The position numbers and the translations under genes are program-made. From NCBI GenBank assembly GCA_024228555.1, contig JAAETI010000330.1, forward strand, positions 1 through 42,103: DNA of 42,103 nucleotides, in the 5' to 3' direction. The stretch's first letter is position 1, and the number at the start of each line of letters is the position of its first letter. Source of the stretch: a bacterium (GTDB taxonomy: Bacteria; Actinomycetota; Acidimicrobiia; Spongiisociales; UBA5794). The notes under the pieces are model-generated. The model saw only the letters and a program-made list of their open reading frames with translations. It ran no database searches and was not told the DNA's origin. Shown piece after piece: positions 1-39,077 of the stretch.

Positions 1-1002
1 CTCGACGCCGCGGCAAACGGAGCTTCATTCCGTGCTGCGGTACCCGGCGGCGAGGCGGTCTATGCGCCCGTCCTTCTCCCCAACACCGGCGAGACGATCG
101 TAGTGCGGGTCTTTGTCACCGATGAATCCCTAACCGACGGCGTTGCCAGATCGACGACCACCCTTGGCGTGCTGGGCCTAGCCCTGGTTGCGATCGCGAT
201 CGCGGTCTCGGACCGCCTCGGCCGATCCATGGTGCAGCCCGTGCGCGAATTGTCGGCGACCGCCTCCGTCCTTGGCGAGGGGAACCTCGAAGCCAGGGTG
301 ACTCCCTCGGGACCGCGCGAGGTCCAGGAGGTTGCGTTGGAGCTCAACGACTTGGCCGACCGGATCGTCCGCTTGCTGCGTATGGAGCGTGAGGCTGCGG
401 CCGATCTATCGCACCGGCTGCGGACACCGCTCACCGCAGTCCGACTTGATGCGGAAGCGTTGCCGGAAGGCCAGGGGACACAACGACTTCTCGACGACCT
501 CGATGAACTGGAGAGGACCGTCGACTTCGTGATCCGCGAAGCTCGCCGCCCCGGCCGGACCGACACCATCGACGCTTGCGACATCGCCGAAGTTGCCGCC
601 GAACGGGTTGCGTTCTGGACCGCACTCGCTGAGGAGCAAGATCGCACCCTCGACTACATGTCGGATGGCAAGCCGGCCCCGGTGGCGCTTGGTGCCGATG
701 ATGCCACCGCAATGATCGACGCACTCGTCGGCAACGTCTTTGCACACACCGAGGAAGGCATTGACTTCGTGGTGGCCGTTGCCTCGGTATCAGATGATGA
801 GGTCATGATCATCGTTGATGATCAGGGGCCGGGCTTCTCAGCCGAGATGGCTGAACGGGGCATCAGCGCAGCCGGGTCAACAGGCCTGGGCCTGGACATC
901 GCAACCCGGACCGCAGATTCGGCGGGTGGCAATCTGACAATCGGAGTCAGCGAGGAAGGCGGAGGCCGCGTCGCCGTTACCTTGCGGCGTCGTCTCAGCT
1001 AG
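1..1002 (+). CDS. HAMP-domain sensor histidine kinase, C-terminal part (5' end outside window)
   Basis: The reading frame is open from base 1, so the N-terminus and first membrane helix lie to the left. What remains is the end of an extracytoplasmic region, one membrane helix (around codons 50-65), a HAMP segment ending in the motif SDRLGR, and a HisKA box DLSHRLRTPLTAVR with the phospho-accepting His at bases 412-414. These are followed by an HATPase domain with N-box DALVGNVFAHT, G1 motif DDQGPGF and G2 motif STGLGLDI. The protein is therefore a membrane kinase that phosphorylates a response regulator, probably encoded just outside the window. It is clearly paralogous to the kinase at 31563-32885, with the same H-box and G2 wording. 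Its stop overlaps by 8 bp the end of the convergent ferric-reductase-like gene, so it may control that operon (inference). Confidence 0.93.
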   Translation, partial: LDAAANGASFRAAVPGGEAVYAPVLLPNTGETIVVRVFVTDESLTDGVARSTTTLGVLGLALVAIAIAVSDRLGRSMVQPVRELSATASVLGEGNLEARVTPSGPREVQEVALELNDLADRIVRLLRMEREAAADLSHRLRTPLTAVRLDAEALPEGQGTQRLLDDLDELERTVDFVIREARRPGRTDTIDACDIAEVAAERVAFWTALAEEQDRTLDYMSDGKPAPVALGADDATAMIDALVGNVFAHTEEGIDFVVAVASVSDDEVMIIVDDQGPGFSAEMAERGISAAGSTGLGLDIATRTADSAGGNLTIGVSEEGGGRVAVTLRRRLS

Positions 1003-1597
1003 CTGGCACCTCAGCGGGCTCGGCGCTCTTCGCTGCTGGCGCTCGCCGTGCGGCGGGTCGGGCTGCCCGGGTCGGTGGTGCCACCGACTGCGCAATCCGG
1101 ATGATCATCAGCATCGTCACCATGGCCAGCGACGCCACGTACATGATCGTCACCGCGGCGTTGGCGGTATCGGTACCGCTGAAGACTCCGTGCAGCGCCG
1201 CACCCAGGAATGTCCCAAACGACGCCATGTGAATCGCTCGCCAAGCGTTCTGCCCGATCCACTTCTTGACGTAGAAGCTCAGGGTGATGACAAACATCAT
1301 GTAGAAGGCAACGACACCCAGGGCAACCGGTAGCGGTTGCCACGCCGATGCCCCAGGGACAAATAGGGCCCGATAGCCAAAGTCGATGAAGTCGTGGTTG
1401 AAGAGGAAGTACATATGGATTCCGGTTGCGATCAGCGAACCGATGGCCAGCGACTCGTGGAACCACGACACCGGCTTCGCCTTCACGGCCCTGCCGAGAA
1501 CCTTTGTTGAGATCAGCAGACCCCAAATGGTCGATCCGGCCAACAATGCATAGGCGATGAGGCCTGACCCCCGGATCGCCATCCACTCAATACTCAT
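995..1597 (-). CDS. Ferric-reductase-like transmembrane cytochrome b-type protein
   Basis: A 200-residue integral membrane protein with about five to six helices. Four histidines sit in two helices in the spacing expected for two bis-His haems: H47 and H61 (x13) in WFHESLAIGSLIATGIH, and H123 and H136 (x12) in IHMASFGTFLGAALH. This is the pattern of the ferric reductase/NOX/MsrQ-like membrane domain, which carries electrons across the membrane. The Ala/Arg/Pro-rich C-terminus is cytoplasmic and probably disordered. I chose ATG at 1597 because GGAG lies about 9 nt upstream; the longer open frame only runs antiparallel through apbE. The gene is last in the operon, 25 nt after apbE. It has no NAD(P)H/FAD domain of its own, so it needs a partner. 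The family is secure; electron donor and acceptor are unknown. Confidence 0.85.
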   Translation of the reverse strand: MSIEWMAIRGSGLIAYALLAGSTIWGLLISTKVLGRAVKAKPVSWFHESLAIGSLIATGIHMYFLFNHDFIDFGYRALFVPGASAWQPLPVALGVVAFYMMFVITLSFYVKKWIGQNAWRAIHMASFGTFLGAALHGVFSGTDTANAAVTIMYVASLAMVTMLMIIRIAQSVAPPTRAARPAARRAPAAKSAEPAEVPAS

Positions 1598-1622: not shown

Positions 1623-2459
1623 TCACGCCGCCATCTCCCACCCAGTGGTTGCGTATACGTTGCCGTCATGCCAGACGACCAACGCGGCATCGATCCAATT
1701 CTGTTGCTCTGCCCACGCCAAACCGTGCTCTCCGTGGAGCAAGACAGCCTTTGCCCCAGCCTCTGCCTCGACGGCTGAGGCCGCGATGACGGTTGCGCTG
1801 AAGATCGGCGACGTGGCAGGGGCAAGACGACGGGGATCAATGATGTGGTGAGCTTCACGACCGGCGACCTTCCAGCGACGTCGTGACGACGATGATGTGG
1901 CCAAGCCACCGCTGCCAAGCAGAACCCGGGCGGCCACCTCACCCCAGGGATCCTCAATCTCCACGATCGTATCGGCAAGCACTGAGCGAACATCGCCGCC
2001 TGCGGAAACCACATCGGCGAGCCCGCGCGTCACTGCCTGATCGCATGTCCATCCCTTGGCGATCCCTCCGAGATCGAGACGCACGCCGTGCTGGCGATAG
2101 ACCGAGTTGCCGTCTACCGACCATCGACCAATCCCTCGGATTGGGCCCAGCTCGCTGCGGTCGGCCACATCGACAAAGTCGCGGTCGTAACCCCAATCGA
2201 CAAGCGCACCGCCCACCGCCGGGTCGATAAGCCCGTCGGTACGAAGCAGGAGCCCAGCTGCTGTGGTGAGACATGAAGCCATCTCGTCCGACACCACCAG
2301 CGTGGGATCTGGGGACCCGTTCAATCGACTCAGTTCGCTGTCGGCAATGAACCGGCTGAACACACGCTCGGCAGCGTCGAACCATTCCCCGACACCAGAA
2401 ACATCGGAGCCGATGGCGACGACGCTGGTTCCCATGGCACGGAAGGACACCCGATTCAT
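1623..2459 (-). CDS. apbE: FAD:protein FMN transferase (ApbE family)
   Basis: A 278-residue ApbE-like enzyme. The family moves FMN from FAD onto Thr/Ser of exported redox proteins, using Mg2+. Recognisable family signatures are the N-terminal MGTS, FSRFIADSELSRLN, the Gly-rich GGIAKGWTCDQAV, SAGGDVRSV and the late HHIIDPR. No clear lipobox or signal peptide is visible, which is unusual for a family that normally acts outside the membrane. The start is the ATG at 2459, which overlaps the preceding stop as ATGA, so translation is probably coupled. Its neighbour is a ferric-reductase-like membrane protein. That pairing is typical of extracytosolic flavin electron-transfer loci, but the usual FMN_bind substrate domain (S/T-G-A-T/S motif) is not seen in the window. 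The family call is firm and the substrate unknown. Confidence 0.9.
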   Translation of the reverse strand: MNRVSFRAMGTSVVAIGSDVSGVGEWFDAAERVFSRFIADSELSRLNGSPDPTLVVSDEMASCLTTAAGLLLRTDGLIDPAVGGALVDWGYDRDFVDVADRSELGPIRGIGRWSVDGNSVYRQHGVRLDLGGIAKGWTCDQAVTRGLADVVSAGGDVRSVLADTIVEIEDPWGEVAARVLLGSGGLATSSSSRRRWKVAGREAHHIIDPRRLAPATSPIFSATVIAASAVEAEAGAKAVLLHGEHGLAWAEQQNWIDAALVVWHDGNVYATTGWEMAA

Positions 2460-2827
2460 GAGCCGGAGCTGGTTACGACATTGATGGTCGGTCGATCCGC
2501 CGACCCGCCACCGCCAGAGGAAGAAGAACCACCACCGCCACCGCCACCGCCAACGGTCACGGTGCGGGTGATGACCTCTGGAGGGGGCGGAGGAACCGGG
2601 GTGTAGCGAATGATGACCAGGCCTTCCTCGGTCGGGGCCGGAACTGCGGCCACCGGCTCCGGGACTTCTTGCACTTCCGGCTCGGGCAGAGGCTCTGGCG
2701 CCGGCTCGGCAACGTCGGCCTGCTCGGCGGCGGCTTGGACCGCAATCACCGAGGTGCCCCATGCGACTGCGGCGCCCGTCCAGGCAAGGATTCGAGCCCA
2801 CCTGCTGGGGAATAGACGTTTCAGCAT
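2456..2827 (-). CDS. Small membrane-anchored Pro/Glu- and Gly/Ser-rich protein, function unknown
   Basis: A 123-residue protein I do not recognise. Residues about 10-32 form a signal anchor or signal peptide with a basic lead (MLKRLFPSRWAR). Next come an acidic Pro/Glu segment (PEPLPEPEVQEVPEP), a short hydrophobic strand, a poly-Pro stretch, a run of Gly then Ser then Gly, and a Thr/Ser end (VVTSSGS). It looks like an exported flexible linker or wall-spanning protein. ATG at 2827 is preceded by an excellent GAGGAGG about 5 nt away, lying within the end of the upstream gene, so I prefer it to an ATG 36 nt further out. The stop overlaps apbE by 4 nt (ATGA). A role as scaffold or flavin-accepting partner of the redox module is possible, but no canonical flavinylation motif is present. 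Confidence 0.75.
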   Translation of the reverse strand: MLKRLFPSRWARILAWTGAAVAWGTSVIAVQAAAEQADVAEPAPEPLPEPEVQEVPEPVAAVPAPTEEGLVIIRYTPVPPPPPEVITRTVTVGGGGGGGGSSSSGGGGSADRPTINVVTSSGS

Positions 2828-2828
2828 G

Positions 2829-3197
2829 TCAGCCCTCCTCGCCGGCCGGGTCTTGCTCGACAACCGTCAAGACTGCACCCTGCTCGATCAACACCCGGGT
2901 CACCGCATCGGGCAACTGCTCGTCCAACGTTGGCTGGCCCGTCAGCTCCGCATAACCATTGGCCTGCAAGATGCGGACAATCGATGGGTCGAGCTCGTCA
3001 ACCTCGAGTTCGGGGACCGGCTCAACCACAACGGTTGTGAATTCCGAGGAGGTGGTGGTGGCGTCGCTCACCACAACCTCCTCGACTACCGATTCTTCCG
3101 CAGGGGAGGTCAGCAGCCAGAGCACGGGGACTAGCCCTGTCACTGCCACTACCGCTGCGGCCAACAACGACACGAAGCTGGTGGATTCCTTAGCCAT
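2829..3197 (-). CDS. Small membrane-anchored acidic protein, function unknown
   Basis: A 122-residue protein with an N-terminal membrane segment (residues about 9-31, SFVSLLAAAVVAVTGLVPVLW). A Val/Glu/Thr-rich spacer follows (TTTSSEFTTVVVEPVPELEVDEL), then a short folded-looking region, IVRILQANGYAELTGQPTLDEQLPDAV, ending in acidic residues. It has no recognised domain. It lies 18 nt after the acidic-tail gene and just ahead of the next start. No good ribosome-binding sequence precedes its ATG (the leader is pyrimidine-rich), so it probably depends on reinitiation from the gene upstream. Together with its two neighbours it forms a trio of exported low-complexity proteins specific to this redox operon. 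Confidence 0.72.
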   Translation of the reverse strand: MAKESTSFVSLLAAAVVAVTGLVPVLWLLTSPAEESVVEEVVVSDATTTSSEFTTVVVEPVPELEVDELDPSIVRILQANGYAELTGQPTLDEQLPDAVTRVLIEQGAVLTVVEQDPAGEEG

Positions 3198-3215
3198 GAG
3201 AGAAGACGAAGCCGA

Positions 3216-4010
3216 CTACTCGTCGTCTTCGTCCTCATCCTCCTCGTCTTCCTCGTCTTCCTCGTCTTCCTCGTCCTCTTCGTCTTCCTCGTCCTCTTCG
3301 TCCTCGTCGTCGTGGTCATCGTCGTCGTGGTCATCGTCATCATCATGATGACCACGACGATTGGCCGCATCGGCGGCGTCGCGAGCCGCAGACAGCTTGT
3401 CCATACCGTCCACGTAGTCACCGGCGTCGGCAAGACCAGCGGCTTCTCCCACCAGTCGCTCGGCCTTGGCAATCTTCTCGCCGTTGGCTCCGTCGGCAAT
3501 CGCAGCGTTGATGTAGTTCACGGTTGCGGCGTACTCGGCCTCGAACTCCGCAGCGGCATCGTCGGTGTCGGAGTCGTCGGCAGAGTCACCAGATGGACCC
3601 GGAGCAGCAACGACTGTGACGGTCTGGACAACAGCCTCGGGGGCGGGAGGTCCAGGCAATTCGAGACCCTCGGCAAGACAGATGGCACGGAGCGAATCCA
3701 GTGCGGCCTGCTCCAGTGGCGAGATGCTGGCGTCGGCTTCCTTCATGACCAGCGACAGCCCTTGCTCGCCACACGCGGCTGCGAGGTCATCACTCGACGC
3801 TATCTCGGGAAGCTCGATCTCTTCGATCGCTTCTGTCGTTGTTGTGGTCTCGACTACGACCTCAGTGGCGGCGACCTCTTCCGGCTCCGCGGCTGCATCT
3901 GGGTTCACCAGCGCTACCGCGGCGACTGCGCTCAACGGAACGAGCAGCAGCCCTACGACCAGCGAGGTCGAGAACTTCTTCGGTTTGGCAGTTCCAGGTT
4001 TGGCTTTCAA
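3216..4010 (-). CDS. Exported protein with a 45-residue Asp/Glu/His C-terminal tail
   Basis: A 264-residue protein starting at TTG. The start is supported by AAGGAG seven nt upstream, which makes it one of the clearest ribosome-binding sites in the window. Layout: basic lead and membrane helix (about residues 14-36), an acidic/Thr spacer (VVETTTTTEAIEEIELPE), and a possible small domain with two Cys (AAACGEQG and RAICLAEG). After a disordered Pro/Asp region comes a helical segment (about 155-218; EYAATVNYINAAIADG to AARDAADAANRR), and finally a tail of only Asp, Glu and four to five His. The tail should bind cations such as Fe, Ca, Mn or Zn (inference). The DNA for the tail is a 9-nt repeat prone to slippage. 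It is the first gene of the operon with apbE and the ferric-reductase-like gene. No family is recognised. Confidence 0.82.
   Translation of the reverse strand: MKAKPGTAKPKKFSTSLVVGLLLVPLSAVAAVALVNPDAAAEPEEVAATEVVVETTTTTEAIEEIELPEIASSDDLAAACGEQGLSLVMKEADASISPLEQAALDSLRAICLAEGLELPGPPAPEAVVQTVTVVAAPGPSGDSADDSDTDDAAAEFEAEYAATVNYINAAIADGANGEKIAKAERLVGEAAGLADAGDYVDGMDKLSAARDAADAANRRGHHDDDDDHDDDDHDDEDEEDEEDEEDEEDEEDEEDEEDEDEDDE
3219..3353 (-). repeat. Tandem GAC-GAG-GAA (9-nt) microsatellite coding the acidic tail
   Basis: On the coding strand the last 45 codons are almost only GAC, GAT, GAG, GAA and CAC/CAT. The core is about seven imperfect copies of a 9-nt unit reading Asp-Glu-Glu. Loss or gain of whole units keeps the frame, so tail length can vary between strains without destroying the protein. 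The opposite strand reads as a meaningless poly-Ser frame. Confidence 0.85.
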
Positions 4011-4071: not shown

Positions 4072-4129
4072 GAGGCTGCGTTAAGCCATCGCTAATTGAT
4101 CAACAAACGCCGTCTAAAGATTTGGCAGC

Positions 4130-6185: not shown

Positions 6186-7051
6186 CAGCTTCCCACCGCC
6201 TGCCTGCGCCGTCGGTCTCTCTCTGTATACCAGTCCGTGAAGCGAGCCACCGGGACGCTCACCAGCAAGAACAAGATCGTTGCAACAATGTATGGGGTGT
6301 AGTTGAACGTGCTGGCGATGTAGATCTGGGCCTCGCGAACGCCTTCCCGCACACCGAGGACGTAGACAAGAGCCACGTCCTTCTGCAGACTCACAAACCC
6401 ATTGAGCAATGCAGGGATGACGTTGCGGATCGCCTGCGGCACCAGCACAAATCGCAAAGTCTGGAATTGGGTGAGGCCCAGCGACCGCGCTGCCATCCGC
6501 TGGCTTTCGTGAACGGATTCGATCCCGGCTCGATAGACCTCAGCCGTGTACGCGCTGTAGCTGATCACCAGAGTGGCAACACCCCAAAACAGCGGACTGC
6601 TCGGTACACCAGCGAGTTGCAGGGCAGGTATGCCAAAACCCAAGAGCAGGATCAGCAGGATGATCGGCACCCCACGGATCAGGTCGATGAACACGATCAC
6701 GATCGCCCGCAGCGGGAAAAACGCCGGTCCGCGCAGTGATCGGATCATTGCCAACACCAGCGCAAGGAACAGGATGAGGACTTCAGCTACCAGGAACATC
6801 CGAATATCGAGCCAGAACCCGCTGAGAACTTCCGGGAAGGATGCCCAGAAGTGCTCGGAATTGAAGAACTGGTTCTGTACCGCCGGCCATGCCTCGGAGG
6901 TGAGAATCCACCACAGGACAACGGCGACCAGTACCAGCGTCGAAATCGCAGCGACGAGGGCGCTTCTGGCCCCTTCTTCGGTCTGGCGCTTCCCCTGCTT
7001 CCGGGACGGCCACAAGCCAGGACTCTCGACCTTCTCTGGCGACGTCGTCAC
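6185..7051 (-). CDS. Polar amino-acid ABC transporter permease (GlnP/HisM-like)
   Basis: A 288-residue membrane permease. It has an N-terminal cytoplasmic lead and first helix (about 30-50), then a BPD_transp_1 domain with the motif LIRGVPIILLILLLGFGIP. The EAA loop (YRAGIESVHESQRMAARSLG) contacts the ATPase. The start is GTG at 7051, with no in-frame ATG before it. GGTGA lies a few bases upstream and GGAGGAG further out. The gene is read with the ATPase gene. The N-terminal region is longer than in many GlnP proteins, which suggests one extra helix. Exact substrate is not readable; acidic or polar amino acids are likely from the family. Confidence 0.94.
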   Translation of the reverse strand: MTTSPEKVESPGLWPSRKQGKRQTEEGARSALVAAISTLVLVAVVLWWILTSEAWPAVQNQFFNSEHFWASFPEVLSGFWLDIRMFLVAEVLILFLALVLAMIRSLRGPAFFPLRAIVIVFIDLIRGVPIILLILLLGFGIPALQLAGVPSSPLFWGVATLVISYSAYTAEVYRAGIESVHESQRMAARSLGLTQFQTLRFVLVPQAIRNVIPALLNGFVSLQKDVALVYVLGVREGVREAQIYIASTFNYTPYIVATILFLLVSVPVARFTDWYTERDRRRRQAVGS

Positions 7052-7106
7052 AGGGTCACCATCCGTAGCGCTTCTCCTCCACCGCGGACCGGTGAGAATA
7101 GCCGGG

Positions 7107-7112
7107 TACGAT
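7107..7112 (+). promoter_or_regulatory. -10 box TACGAT for the SAM hydrolase gene (leaderless)
   Basis: TACGAT ends 6 nt before the ATG at 7119, and no ribosome-binding sequence lies between. The promoter sits inside the 67-bp gap shared with the divergent permease gene. Confidence 0.5.
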
Positions 7113-7118
7113 CACCCA

Positions 7119-7925
7119 ATGACATTCATCACCCTGACCACAGATTTTGGTACACGCCAGGGAAGCCACACGGTGCTGCATGGTGCCATCTACGGAATTG
7201 CCCCCGACGCCGTTATCACTGATCTCAGCCACGAGATCACGCCGCAGGACATCCGGGAGGCCAACTTCGTTGTCAACAACAGTGCCTTCTTCTTCCCCGA
7301 TGGCACCGTCCACGTGATCGTTGTTGATCCCGGTGTTGGCACAGAACGCCGGGCAATCGCCGCCCGGATCGGTTCGCACTACTTCGTGGCACCGGACAAC
7401 GGGGTCCTCTCGGCGTGCCTTCGTCGTGCTGACGAGATGGGATGGTCAACCGAATTCGTCGACCTCGACAAACCCGAATACTGGCTGACCAACGTTACCA
7501 ACACATTCCACGGTAGGGACTTGTTCGCCCCGGTGGGCGCCCACCTTGGGGCCGGCGTTTCCCTTGGCGACCTGGGATCGGCCATGACCGACCCGATCCT
7601 GATGCCATTGTGGGAAGCGACACAACACGATGACGGCAGCGTCAGCGGAGAGGTCATCTACATCGACGACTTTGGTAATGCGATTTGCTCGATCCTTCCG
7701 GATGAAATCGCTCATCTGCCGGTTCCGAATGGGGTGAAGGTCGAGTTGGGTGGGGCGACCATCGACGGGATGGTGCGAACCTTCGGGGATTCCGAGTACG
7801 GAACCGACACTCTCATCGCTCTGTGGGACTCCAGCGGCTACCTGCTCGTTTCCGAGAACAACGGAACCGGTGGCAAGGTCATCCAGCCCTGCCCAGGGGA
7901 CCGAGTCACAGTCCGCTCCCAATAG
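7119..7925 (+). CDS. S-adenosyl-L-methionine hydrolase/hydroxide adenosyltransferase (DUF62 family)
   Basis: A 268-residue protein of the fluorinase/SAM hydroxide adenosyltransferase family, which splits SAM with water to adenosine and methionine. Conserved family strings are the opening TTDFGT, ITDLSHEI, FFFPDGTVHVIVVDPGVG, APDNGVLS, FHGRDLFAPVGAHLA-like and IDDFGNAICS. The Asp-Arg-His set of water-activating SAM hydrolases appears present (DPGVGTERR and FHGRD), and no fluorinase-specific insertion is seen. ATG at 7119 gives the family's exact N-terminus; the longer open frame only crosses the divergent permease gene. It is flanked by the two halves of an amino-acid transporter on the other strand. 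Its product methionine links it loosely to amino-acid economy, but a direct link is inference. Confidence 0.92.
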   Translation: MTFITLTTDFGTRQGSHTVLHGAIYGIAPDAVITDLSHEITPQDIREANFVVNNSAFFFPDGTVHVIVVDPGVGTERRAIAARIGSHYFVAPDNGVLSACLRRADEMGWSTEFVDLDKPEYWLTNVTNTFHGRDLFAPVGAHLGAGVSLGDLGSAMTDPILMPLWEATQHDDGSVSGEVIYIDDFGNAICSILPDEIAHLPVPNGVKVELGGATIDGMVRTFGDSEYGTDTLIALWDSSGYLLVSENNGTGGKVIQPCPGDRVTVRSQ

Positions 7926-7926
7926 C

Positions 7927-7954
7927 GAAAGGGCCCGGAGGCCCGAGCCCTTTC
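7927..7954. terminator. Bidirectional terminator hairpin
   Basis: GAAAGGGC (7927-7934) pairs perfectly with GCCCTTTC (7947-7954) across a 12-nt GC-rich loop. It sits between the convergent SAM hydrolase and binding-protein genes. T-tracts are poor on both sides, so it may be only partly efficient. Confidence 0.65.
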
Positions 7955-7970
7955 ACCTCAATCCGTAGAC

Positions 7971-8855
7971 CTAGTTCCCGATGGTGGGCACACCGCCATC
8001 CTGGGTAAGCCAGGTGTCCTCGAGTTCCTGCAGTTTCCCGTTGTCGATTAGCTCGGCGAGAGCTACATTGACGCACGAGACAAGCGGGTTGCCATCGGCA
8101 AACAGCATCCCGTAGTTGTCAGGATCGGCAGCGCCTTCTTCGAACTGGCCTGCGATGATCGCACCCTCAACCTGCACCGCAGTGACAAAGTATGCGGCGG
8201 GAAGGTCAACAACCAATCCATCGATCTGGCCGGCGCGCATGGCGGCCTCCACATCGACGTTTTCGTCATAAACGCTTGCCTCAGTGTTGGGTTTGATGAC
8301 GTCTTCGACGAAGTCGAGGCTCGTCGTCCCGATCGCAGCGCCCAGCTTGGCGTCTGCAAGATCGGCCAAGCTCGTAGCCGTTGCGAACGGTGAGTCTGGG
8401 AATGTCACCAATGCCTGGCGGGTCGTGTAATACGGCACGCTGAAGTCAACCACTTCGTCGCGCTCGTCGTTGATCGAGTACTGCTGGATGTTGAAATCCC
8501 AGTCCTTCGGTCCAGGAGCAATCGCCTCTCCAAAGCCGGTACGGACAAAGGCCACCTGGTCGTCCGTGAAACCGAGTTCCTCAGCGAGTGCGTAAACCAA
8601 CCCACCCTCAAATCCAGTCTTGGACTCAGGAACGTCAAAGACATCGTCGCCAACGCCCATCCATGGCGGGAAGACCGGCTCACCGGTGGCAACCGTCAGC
8701 GTCCCCGCCGTCGCCAGATTCAGATCCTCAAATGCACAAGAGACATCGGGATCGACTCCCTCAGCTTCATCGTCGCCTCCACAGGCCGCTGCGAGCAAAG
8801 CCAATGCGGCTATCAGCACCAGCACCCGTGTCCACGTGGCTCTTGCCGCGAACAT
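7971..8855 (-). CDS. Amino-acid ABC transporter substrate-binding lipoprotein
   Basis: A 294-residue extracytoplasmic solute receptor (SBP_bac_3 type). The N-terminus is a lipoprotein signal, LIAALALLAAACGGDDE, with the lipid-carrying Cys about residue 20, followed by an acidic linker. The mature part opens GTLTVATGEPVFPPW, has the family's FNIQQYSINDERDEVVDFSVPYY near residue 120, and KLGAAIGTTSLDFVED for the second lobe. It ends in a short Gly/Thr tail. GGAGG lies 4 nt before the ATG at 8855. It most likely feeds the GlnP/GlnQ-like pair at 5439-7051, from which it is separated by the inverted SAM hydrolase gene, so it must have its own promoter or be read from the aminotransferase side. Ligand unknown. 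Confidence 0.93.
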   Translation of the reverse strand: MFAARATWTRVLVLIAALALLAAACGGDDEAEGVDPDVSCAFEDLNLATAGTLTVATGEPVFPPWMGVGDDVFDVPESKTGFEGGLVYALAEELGFTDDQVAFVRTGFGEAIAPGPKDWDFNIQQYSINDERDEVVDFSVPYYTTRQALVTFPDSPFATATSLADLADAKLGAAIGTTSLDFVEDVIKPNTEASVYDENVDVEAAMRAGQIDGLVVDLPAAYFVTAVQVEGAIIAGQFEEGAADPDNYGMLFADGNPLVSCVNVALAELIDNGKLQELEDTWLTQDGGVPTIGN

Positions 8856-38783: not shown

Positions 38784-39039
38784 ATACGAGATGGGTTACT
38801 CCTGATGGGAAGGCGATATGTGCGCCAGACCGCGGAATCCTGCGCTAGAGAATATCATCACAACCCTCAAAAACTCGTAGGACGCACGACCTATTACAGA
38901 CAGTGTCTTGAAACCGTCGCAAGTCGGAAGACGGCCTACACCTCTACCGGCAACTGTGCGCAGAACCTCGAAAAGCTGACTGACGGCCGGGATCGCAGTC
39001 TCATCACCAACCTGCAGTTCACATCGTGAACTGCCAAGG
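38784..39039. other. Intergenic region without a gene
   Basis: About 255 bp between the GGDEF-EAL gene and the repeat next to tRNA-Leu. Short frames on both strands lack family features and ribosome-binding sites. A TATTCT on the minus strand near 38848 might be the GGDEF-EAL -10. I see no c-di-GMP riboswitch. Confidence 0.5.
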
Positions 39040-39077
39040 AACGCCGCAGGCATTCCCGAACGCCGCAGGCATTCCCG
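39040..39077 (-). repeat. Tandem 19-bp repeat, two hairpins directly at the tRNA-Leu 3' end
   Basis: Two identical 19-bp copies (39040-39058 and 39059-39077) end exactly where the tRNA ends. On the tRNA strand each copy contains GAATGCC-TGC-GGCGTTC, a seven-pair stem with one G-U pair and a three-base loop. It may act as a double terminator or a processing signal, or be a scar of integration next to the tRNA. Confidence 0.75.

Follow-up and report, generated by a model that had tools for sequence, protein, structure and literature searches.

An Asp/Glu/His tail on a membrane-anchored protein encoded with ApbE and a ferric reductase-like cytochrome: a candidate metal-ligand strip

The window, the whole stretch of 42,103 nucleotides of actinobacterial DNA analyzed here, is contig 330 of 1027 in a 5.4-Mb genome assembly that is 97.7% complete. 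It harbors five genes arranged on one strand in the order A-B-C-apbE-E, with A first and a cytochrome-like protein encoded by E; the TGA of C overlaps the ATG of apbE (ATGA), and a histidine kinase gene lies on the opposite strand beyond E (Table 1). The feature of primary interest is the C terminus of protein A, the last 45 codons of which encode one Gly, four His, 22 Asp, and 18 Glu; the near-pure acidic run with several His that was originally predicted here is thus real. The same prediction derived the run from a 9-nt DNA repeat, and this holds for the EED part, an 80-bp array of period 9 (8.9 copies, 87% matches) in which GAGGAAGAC and GAAGAGGAC are the alternating units, but not for the His-containing part (positions 3312–3350), which shows no 9-bp repetition. 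Over a 30-codon stretch, 13 bases depart from the unit consensus, seven of them synonymous and six swapping Asp and Glu, with no change of any other kind. No other full copy of the tail stretch is present in the window's own genome, the sole second match being a 39-bp self-match on the reverse strand. An antisense gene was considered as the source of the acid run and rejected: the plus-strand ORF at 2959–3348 is Ser-rich, and the frame of A has conserved homologues. Elsewhere in the window, a perfect 19-bp unit is found in 2.1 copies at 39039–39077.

Table 1 Genes and sequence features of the operon region, in window coordinates
Feature	Position	Strand	Evidence or remark
Histidine kinase (HAMP, HisKA, HATPase_c), truncated at window start	1..1002	+	
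Gene E, five-helix membrane cytochrome-like; His 47, 61, 123, 136 invariant	995..1597	-	
apbE, FAD:protein FMN transferase family	1623..2459	-	PF02424 1.7e-40; nearest solved structure PDB 1vrm, 1.3e-20
Gene C, 123 aa, single TM, Pro/Gly/Ser linker, C terminus SSGS; candidate ApbE substrate	2456..2827	-	
Gene B, 122 aa, single TM	2829..3197	-	ORF
Gene A, 264 aa, TTG start behind AAGGAG	3216..4010	-	ORF; no Pfam match
D/E/H tail, 45 residues	3219..3353	-	C terminus of protein A
9-bp tandem array, EED units, GAGGAAGAC/GAAGAGGAC	3232..3311	-	Tandem Repeats Finder
Direct-repeat element TTAGCGATGGCTTAACG, upstream of A	4079..4095	-	By eye; alike in two congeners

Protein A begins with a basic N terminus and a single transmembrane segment, followed by a helical hairpin that holds two invariant Cys (C80 and C111), a three-helix segment, and finally the acidic tail, which scores low in the structure model. 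From the positive-inside rule, the part of A that is C-terminal to the anchor is predicted to lie outside the membrane, in agreement with the location first proposed for the tail. Neither Pfam nor NCBIfam recognizes a known domain in A of the window, and Foldseek with the A model returned no match at E ≤ 0.001. A specific test for PepSY (PF03413) on this protein was likewise negative; only the backbone encoded at the A position of a distant locus, L144, is PepSY-like, falling just under the cut-off (22.6 of 24 bits). In locus L035 (genome G011), two tandem A genes are found at 6562–8013, the first with an acidic tail and no three-helix part and the second with the three-helix part and no tail; A of the window combines both. 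A Pro-rich stretch followed by V-V/I-x-x-T-V-T-V is common to A (approximately residues 118–136) and C and might form a shared partner contact.

A is detected in 28 of 99 related genomes. Across the class, 38 of 395 genomes yield a match to A at E ≤ 0.001; the strong matches (1e-27 or better) come from 31 genomes, every one of which belongs to the window's order, whereas the remainder are short and weak, so that A, judged by its strong matches among these 395 genomes, is confined to the order. In 24 of the 24 order-level loci with a continuing contig, A is followed by apbE and E, an operon context that the original prediction overlooked; in the three others among the 27 fetched, the contig breaks off immediately behind A. 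Gene E is spread more widely, with matches at E ≤ 1e-8 in 71 of 396 genomes of the phylum, and apbE lies beside E in 38 of 40 distant loci drawn from these 71 genomes, best-scoring first and weaker ones next. The record labels of related loci are nearly all Acidimicrobiia, Acidimicrobiaceae, Actinomycetes, or Actinomycetota MAGs, the rest being some labeled just "bacterium" and one Armatimonadetes.

Within the order, a scored C-terminal tail is present in 23 of 29 A proteins and spans 16 to 55 residues. The six without one, which are outside the composition count given below, are the second A copies in L034 and L035, in each of which the neighboring first copy bears a tail; the A proteins of three species of one genus (L048, L049, and L050), which have no acidic tail at all in an otherwise full operon; and that of L054, in which the acid run is internal rather than C-terminal. 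The original prediction held that tail length might change by replication slippage, and a change by a whole repeat unit is indeed seen between close species: of the congeners L039 and L043, one has a tail longer than the other's by exactly one in-frame 9-bp unit in an alignment with a mean column identity of 94%, a comparison between species with one genome for each. Outside the tail, this pair also has gaps of 3 bp and 6 bp; small in-frame indels are therefore not unique to the tail. In L032 (6722–7509), a TAA ends the tail, and further acidic codons continue beyond it until the contig breaks off, an arrangement suggestive of shortening by a point change.

The 23 tails together comprise 708 residues, among which are 382 Asp, 171 Glu, 76 His, 21 Tyr, 11 Ser, 10 Gly, nine Ala, eight Lys, eight Arg, and two Cys, with no Met, Asn, or Gln; His is found in 21 of the tails and is missing from two. 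In the nontail part of the same A proteins, His accounts for 0.8%, Asn for 1.7%, and Gln for 2.9% of residues. Tail boundaries were set on Asp and Glu only, such that His and Asn are penalized alike. The changes from Asp to Asn and from Glu to Gln or Lys require a single base, and that from Asp to Asn is a transition, that from Asp to His a transversion. Since Asn and Gln each lie one mutation away from Asp or Glu, an excess of His and Tyr without Asn or Gln suggests selection for metal-coordinating side chains and not for charge alone, although we attach no formal probability to this bias because the tail sequences are related. This pattern of Asp, Glu, His, and Tyr fits a cation-ligand role better than it fits charge alone, and the near absence of Cys and Met speaks against soft metals.

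The A-position genes of the distant loci are not recognizably related to A, and yet their products often end in the same way. At least 40% Asp, Glu, and His in the last 30 residues is found for 10 of 20 A-position genes in a first set of distant loci and for four of 20 in a second set, 18 of which have apbE; thus, 14 of 38 distant actinobacterial apbE loci have an acidic tail on an unrelated protein, and these 14, where they enter the composition analysis, were picked for being acidic. Among the 1847 ORFs of at least 60 aa in the first set, A-position genes account for all nine of the most acidic C termini. When ORFs of at least 80 aa from the window and 67 loci were considered, 27 C-terminal Asp/Glu tracts were recovered, 26 of them at the A position of the operon (including one in L171, approximately 0.9 kb upstream of apbE); the sole tract elsewhere is in a plus-strand ORF of L042 that starts from 4273. 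Such a concentration at one operon position argues that the tail is not a product of chance. It is also not indispensable, since 24 of the 38 distant apbE loci fall below 40% Asp, Glu, and His at the A position and L048–L050 are tailless; the tail is frequent, not universal.

The cytochrome-like protein E conserves H47, H61, H123, and H136 in 22 of 22 sequences and, in a second count, in 21 of 21; by sequence, these four form two pairs of would-be heme-ligand His in membrane helices, from which we infer that E binds heme. PF01794, the ferric-reductase-like transmembrane component, is recognized in 16 of 21 E members (best value 1.3e-9), with no match for the window's own E. The model of E (pLDDT 89.4) consists of five long helices, and its predicted fold resembles those of STEAP, duodenal cytochrome b (Dcytb), and bacterial NOX domains, with Z scores of 13.3 to 14.4 over 151 to 158 residues; the top neighbor is SpNOX (Z 14.4, rmsd 3.3, 154 residues), followed by STEAP1 (13.6), STEAP4 (13.5), Dcytb (13.3), and b561 (13.2). 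Stacked hemes characterize STEAP, Dcytb, and bacterial NOX, which act as metal reductases or oxidases. E shares 11 to 17% identity with them and differs in its five helices and in the lack of a fused NAD(P)H or FAD domain. Because the Foldseek E-values are 0.02 or worse and a Z of 13 to 14 is within reach of a common helical-bundle arrangement, the fold evidence is suggestive, and it is the His pattern and the PF01794 matches that carry assignment of E to the ferric-reductase superfamily. On these grounds, the label "ferric-reductase-like" given originally to a neighbor of A appears fair for E, which is however encoded four genes downstream of A and not by the next gene.

No FMN_bind gene is found in the operon, nor is there a conserved [S/T]GA[S/T] motif in A, B, C, or E; candidate canonical flavinylation sites in A, B, and E were rejected because the five [S/T]GA[S/T] matches are scattered and none is conserved. 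Among the 31 genomes with the operon, FMN_bind (PF04205) is absent from 28, DUF2271 from 29, and DUF3570 from 31, and all three are absent from 26; the screen comprised these three of the known substrate families, which also include Flavodoxin_4, FMN_red, NqrB, and others. The three genomes that do have PF04205 carry it on a contig other than that of the operon and beside a second ApbE, and in all five genomes with FMN_bind or DUF2271, a further ApbE is found on the contig of the domain, which is never the contig of the operon. The window's genome encodes one ApbE, that of the operon, and none of the three domains. C ends in S-x-G-S in 25 of 25 proteins read without a filter on the end, against an expectation of 0.045 from shuffling the last 40 residues. 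The C search pattern missed five of 29 loci: three (L032, L036, and L047) end near A, and the other two (L038 and L052) encode C proteins that end in S-x-G-S in a separate listing; the C ends of L042 and L046 were read without the GS-end filter. Distant C-like proteins often end alike (by eye, SDGS, SNGS, TGGS, and SRAS, with several that do not fit), and that of L146 ends in SGAS. The conserved end, together with the 26 genomes that lack all three screened substrate domains, makes C a likely ApbE target with a noncanonical C-terminal tag, and S-x-G-S a possible natural flavinylation tag.

The published ApbE motif, D-x-x-[S/T]-G-A-[S/T], accepts flavin on its last residue, and an engineered seven-residue ApbE tag works at a protein terminus (PMC12052999). 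As in the known substrates described in the accessible part of that source, a Ser or Thr closes a short motif in C, but here S-x-G-S stands at the last residue, with no conserved Asp three residues before the motif and no recognized folded flavin domain; since the two motifs differ, C is a noncanonical candidate substrate and is not proven. In some FMN_red proteins, an unstructured C-terminal extension bears the flavinylation sites (PMC11334425), and the same source describes apbE-linked cytochromes with four central His and links such cytochromes to iron. Unlike C, the proteins in the portion of PMC11334425 available carry their flavinylation sites on a flavin-binding domain, and that portion mentions no acidic tail. 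The operon resembles the MsrQ-like flavinylation clusters that are common in Actinobacteria, which combine a membrane cytochrome of the PF01794 kind with apbE (PMC8238504); electron transfer to the outside has been proposed for them and iron reduction suggested for a VIT1-bearing subset. Clusters of this group encode a PF01794 protein, recognized here in 16 of 21 E members but not in the window's own E, along with apbE or FMN_bind, of which the operon described here has apbE; unlike the typical actinobacterial MsrQ-like cluster, it lacks an FMN_bind substrate gene, which is usual in that group and not required, and it contains A, B, and C in addition, with A acid-tailed (PMC8238504, as far as accessible). 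Neither an acidic tail with ApbE nor a C-terminal S-x-G-S tag is reported in the literature searched, most subscription journals being outside that search.

The fetched stretch includes a match to the window's kinase in 13 of 27 order loci. Response regulators of one family are also found repeatedly, in 16 loci, with an OmpR type in L033. By eye, a direct repeat, TTAGCGATGGCTTAACG or GCTTAACCCACGCTTAACC, can be recognized ahead of A in the window, in L031, and in L033, and L035 has a similar pair; the repeat is a possible response-regulator box, the position of which suggests control of the operon by the linked regulator.

Our preferred reading, which we advance tentatively, is that the tail is an outward-facing polyanionic ligand strip on A that gathers metal cations beside a flavin tethered to C for their reduction. 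A would be the membrane-anchored subunit of an envelope electron-transfer operon, presenting an unstructured strip of Asp and Glu interspersed with His and Tyr; ApbE would attach FMN to the C-terminal Ser of C, which would be tethered to the membrane without a flavin-binding domain; and electrons would reach this FMN from the membrane side by way of E, acting as a five-helix, bis-heme b cytochrome. Hard or borderline metal cations would collect on the strip next to the flavin, and in-frame 9-bp changes would lengthen or shorten the strip with the frame intact. Fe(III) is our best guess for the cation on account of the cytochrome relatives and of the carboxylate, imidazole, and phenolate ligands, which are the usual ligands of Fe(III); Cu(II), Mn, or Ca are also possible. 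A wider version of this reading, which we regard as rather doubtful, is that of an Actinomycetota electron-transfer system with two disordered arms on membrane anchors: the arm on C would end in a natural, domain-free tag, S-x-G-S, whose last residue would carry FMN; the arm on A would capture the metal to be reduced, being kept by composition and not by sequence and tuned in length in 9-bp steps; and the two would meet above a minimal five-helix bis-heme cytochrome.

The alternative that a charged, disordered arm holds a basic partner or extends the complex in the cell wall, with any metals incidental, draws on the low score of the tail in the A model, on the free variation of its sequence with charge retained, and on basic stretches such as RRITRRV (by eye) in distant C-like proteins. 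We nonetheless consider such docking or spacing unlikely, as a role for charge alone would give no reason for His and Tyr to be favored over Asn and Gln, contrary to the counts of 76 and 21 against none of either, and C is not notably basic in the genus of the window. A further alternative is neutral drift, in which a GC-rich array of GAN codons would expand by slippage in a permissive disordered end and serve no specific role. The single 9-bp difference between congeners and the tailless operons of L048–L050 speak for drift; the mixing of synonymous codons with zero nonacidic changes in the window's array, the missing Asn and Gln, and the reappearance of the tail in diverged proteins at one operon position speak against it, and we give this explanation little credence.

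Two further functions can be envisioned for the tail, both improbable in our estimation. It might buffer or present a cation to the linked histidine kinase, with A reporting metal or redox state and the operon regulated in turn; the matching kinases, the recurrent response regulators, and the direct repeat before A are all compatible with such a sensor arm, but the kinase may simply regulate the operon, and other loci have no kinase in the fetched stretch. Many proteins bind Ca(II) through long Asp/Glu runs, and the tail might accordingly act in a calcium-dependent or wall-polymer interaction, either as an acidic adhesive or by mimicking wall polyanions; this leaves unexplained both its His content and its fixed place in a redox operon. 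If the metal-strip reading is true, it gives a concrete function to acidic low-complexity tails that are usually dismissed as noise, and the A proteins constitute a natural series (no tail, short, or long, with or without His and Tyr) by which tail length and composition can be related to metal capacity. Flavinylation of C, if true, explains the targets of many ApbE enzymes without FMN_bind partners and yields the testable claim that an outward reductase can work with a flavin carried on a bare flexible tail.

Family clustering of the flanks, which is not a complete annotation, revealed no recurrent transporter for iron or another metal beside the operon; what recurs are the operon genes, the kinase, the regulator, a ferredoxin (six loci), and families that are antisense or genus-level only. 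A membrane-anchored Thr-rich protein adjoins the response regulator in L031 (11075–11752) and seven further loci; it has no Pfam match, and some copies have a short acidic end. In L045 (5029–5694), another anchored protein, this one with acidic runs in its interior, is encoded just upstream of A. In six loci (L039, L043, L048–L050, and L054), the gene directly upstream of A encodes a small ferredoxin, which in L039 belongs to Fer4_15.
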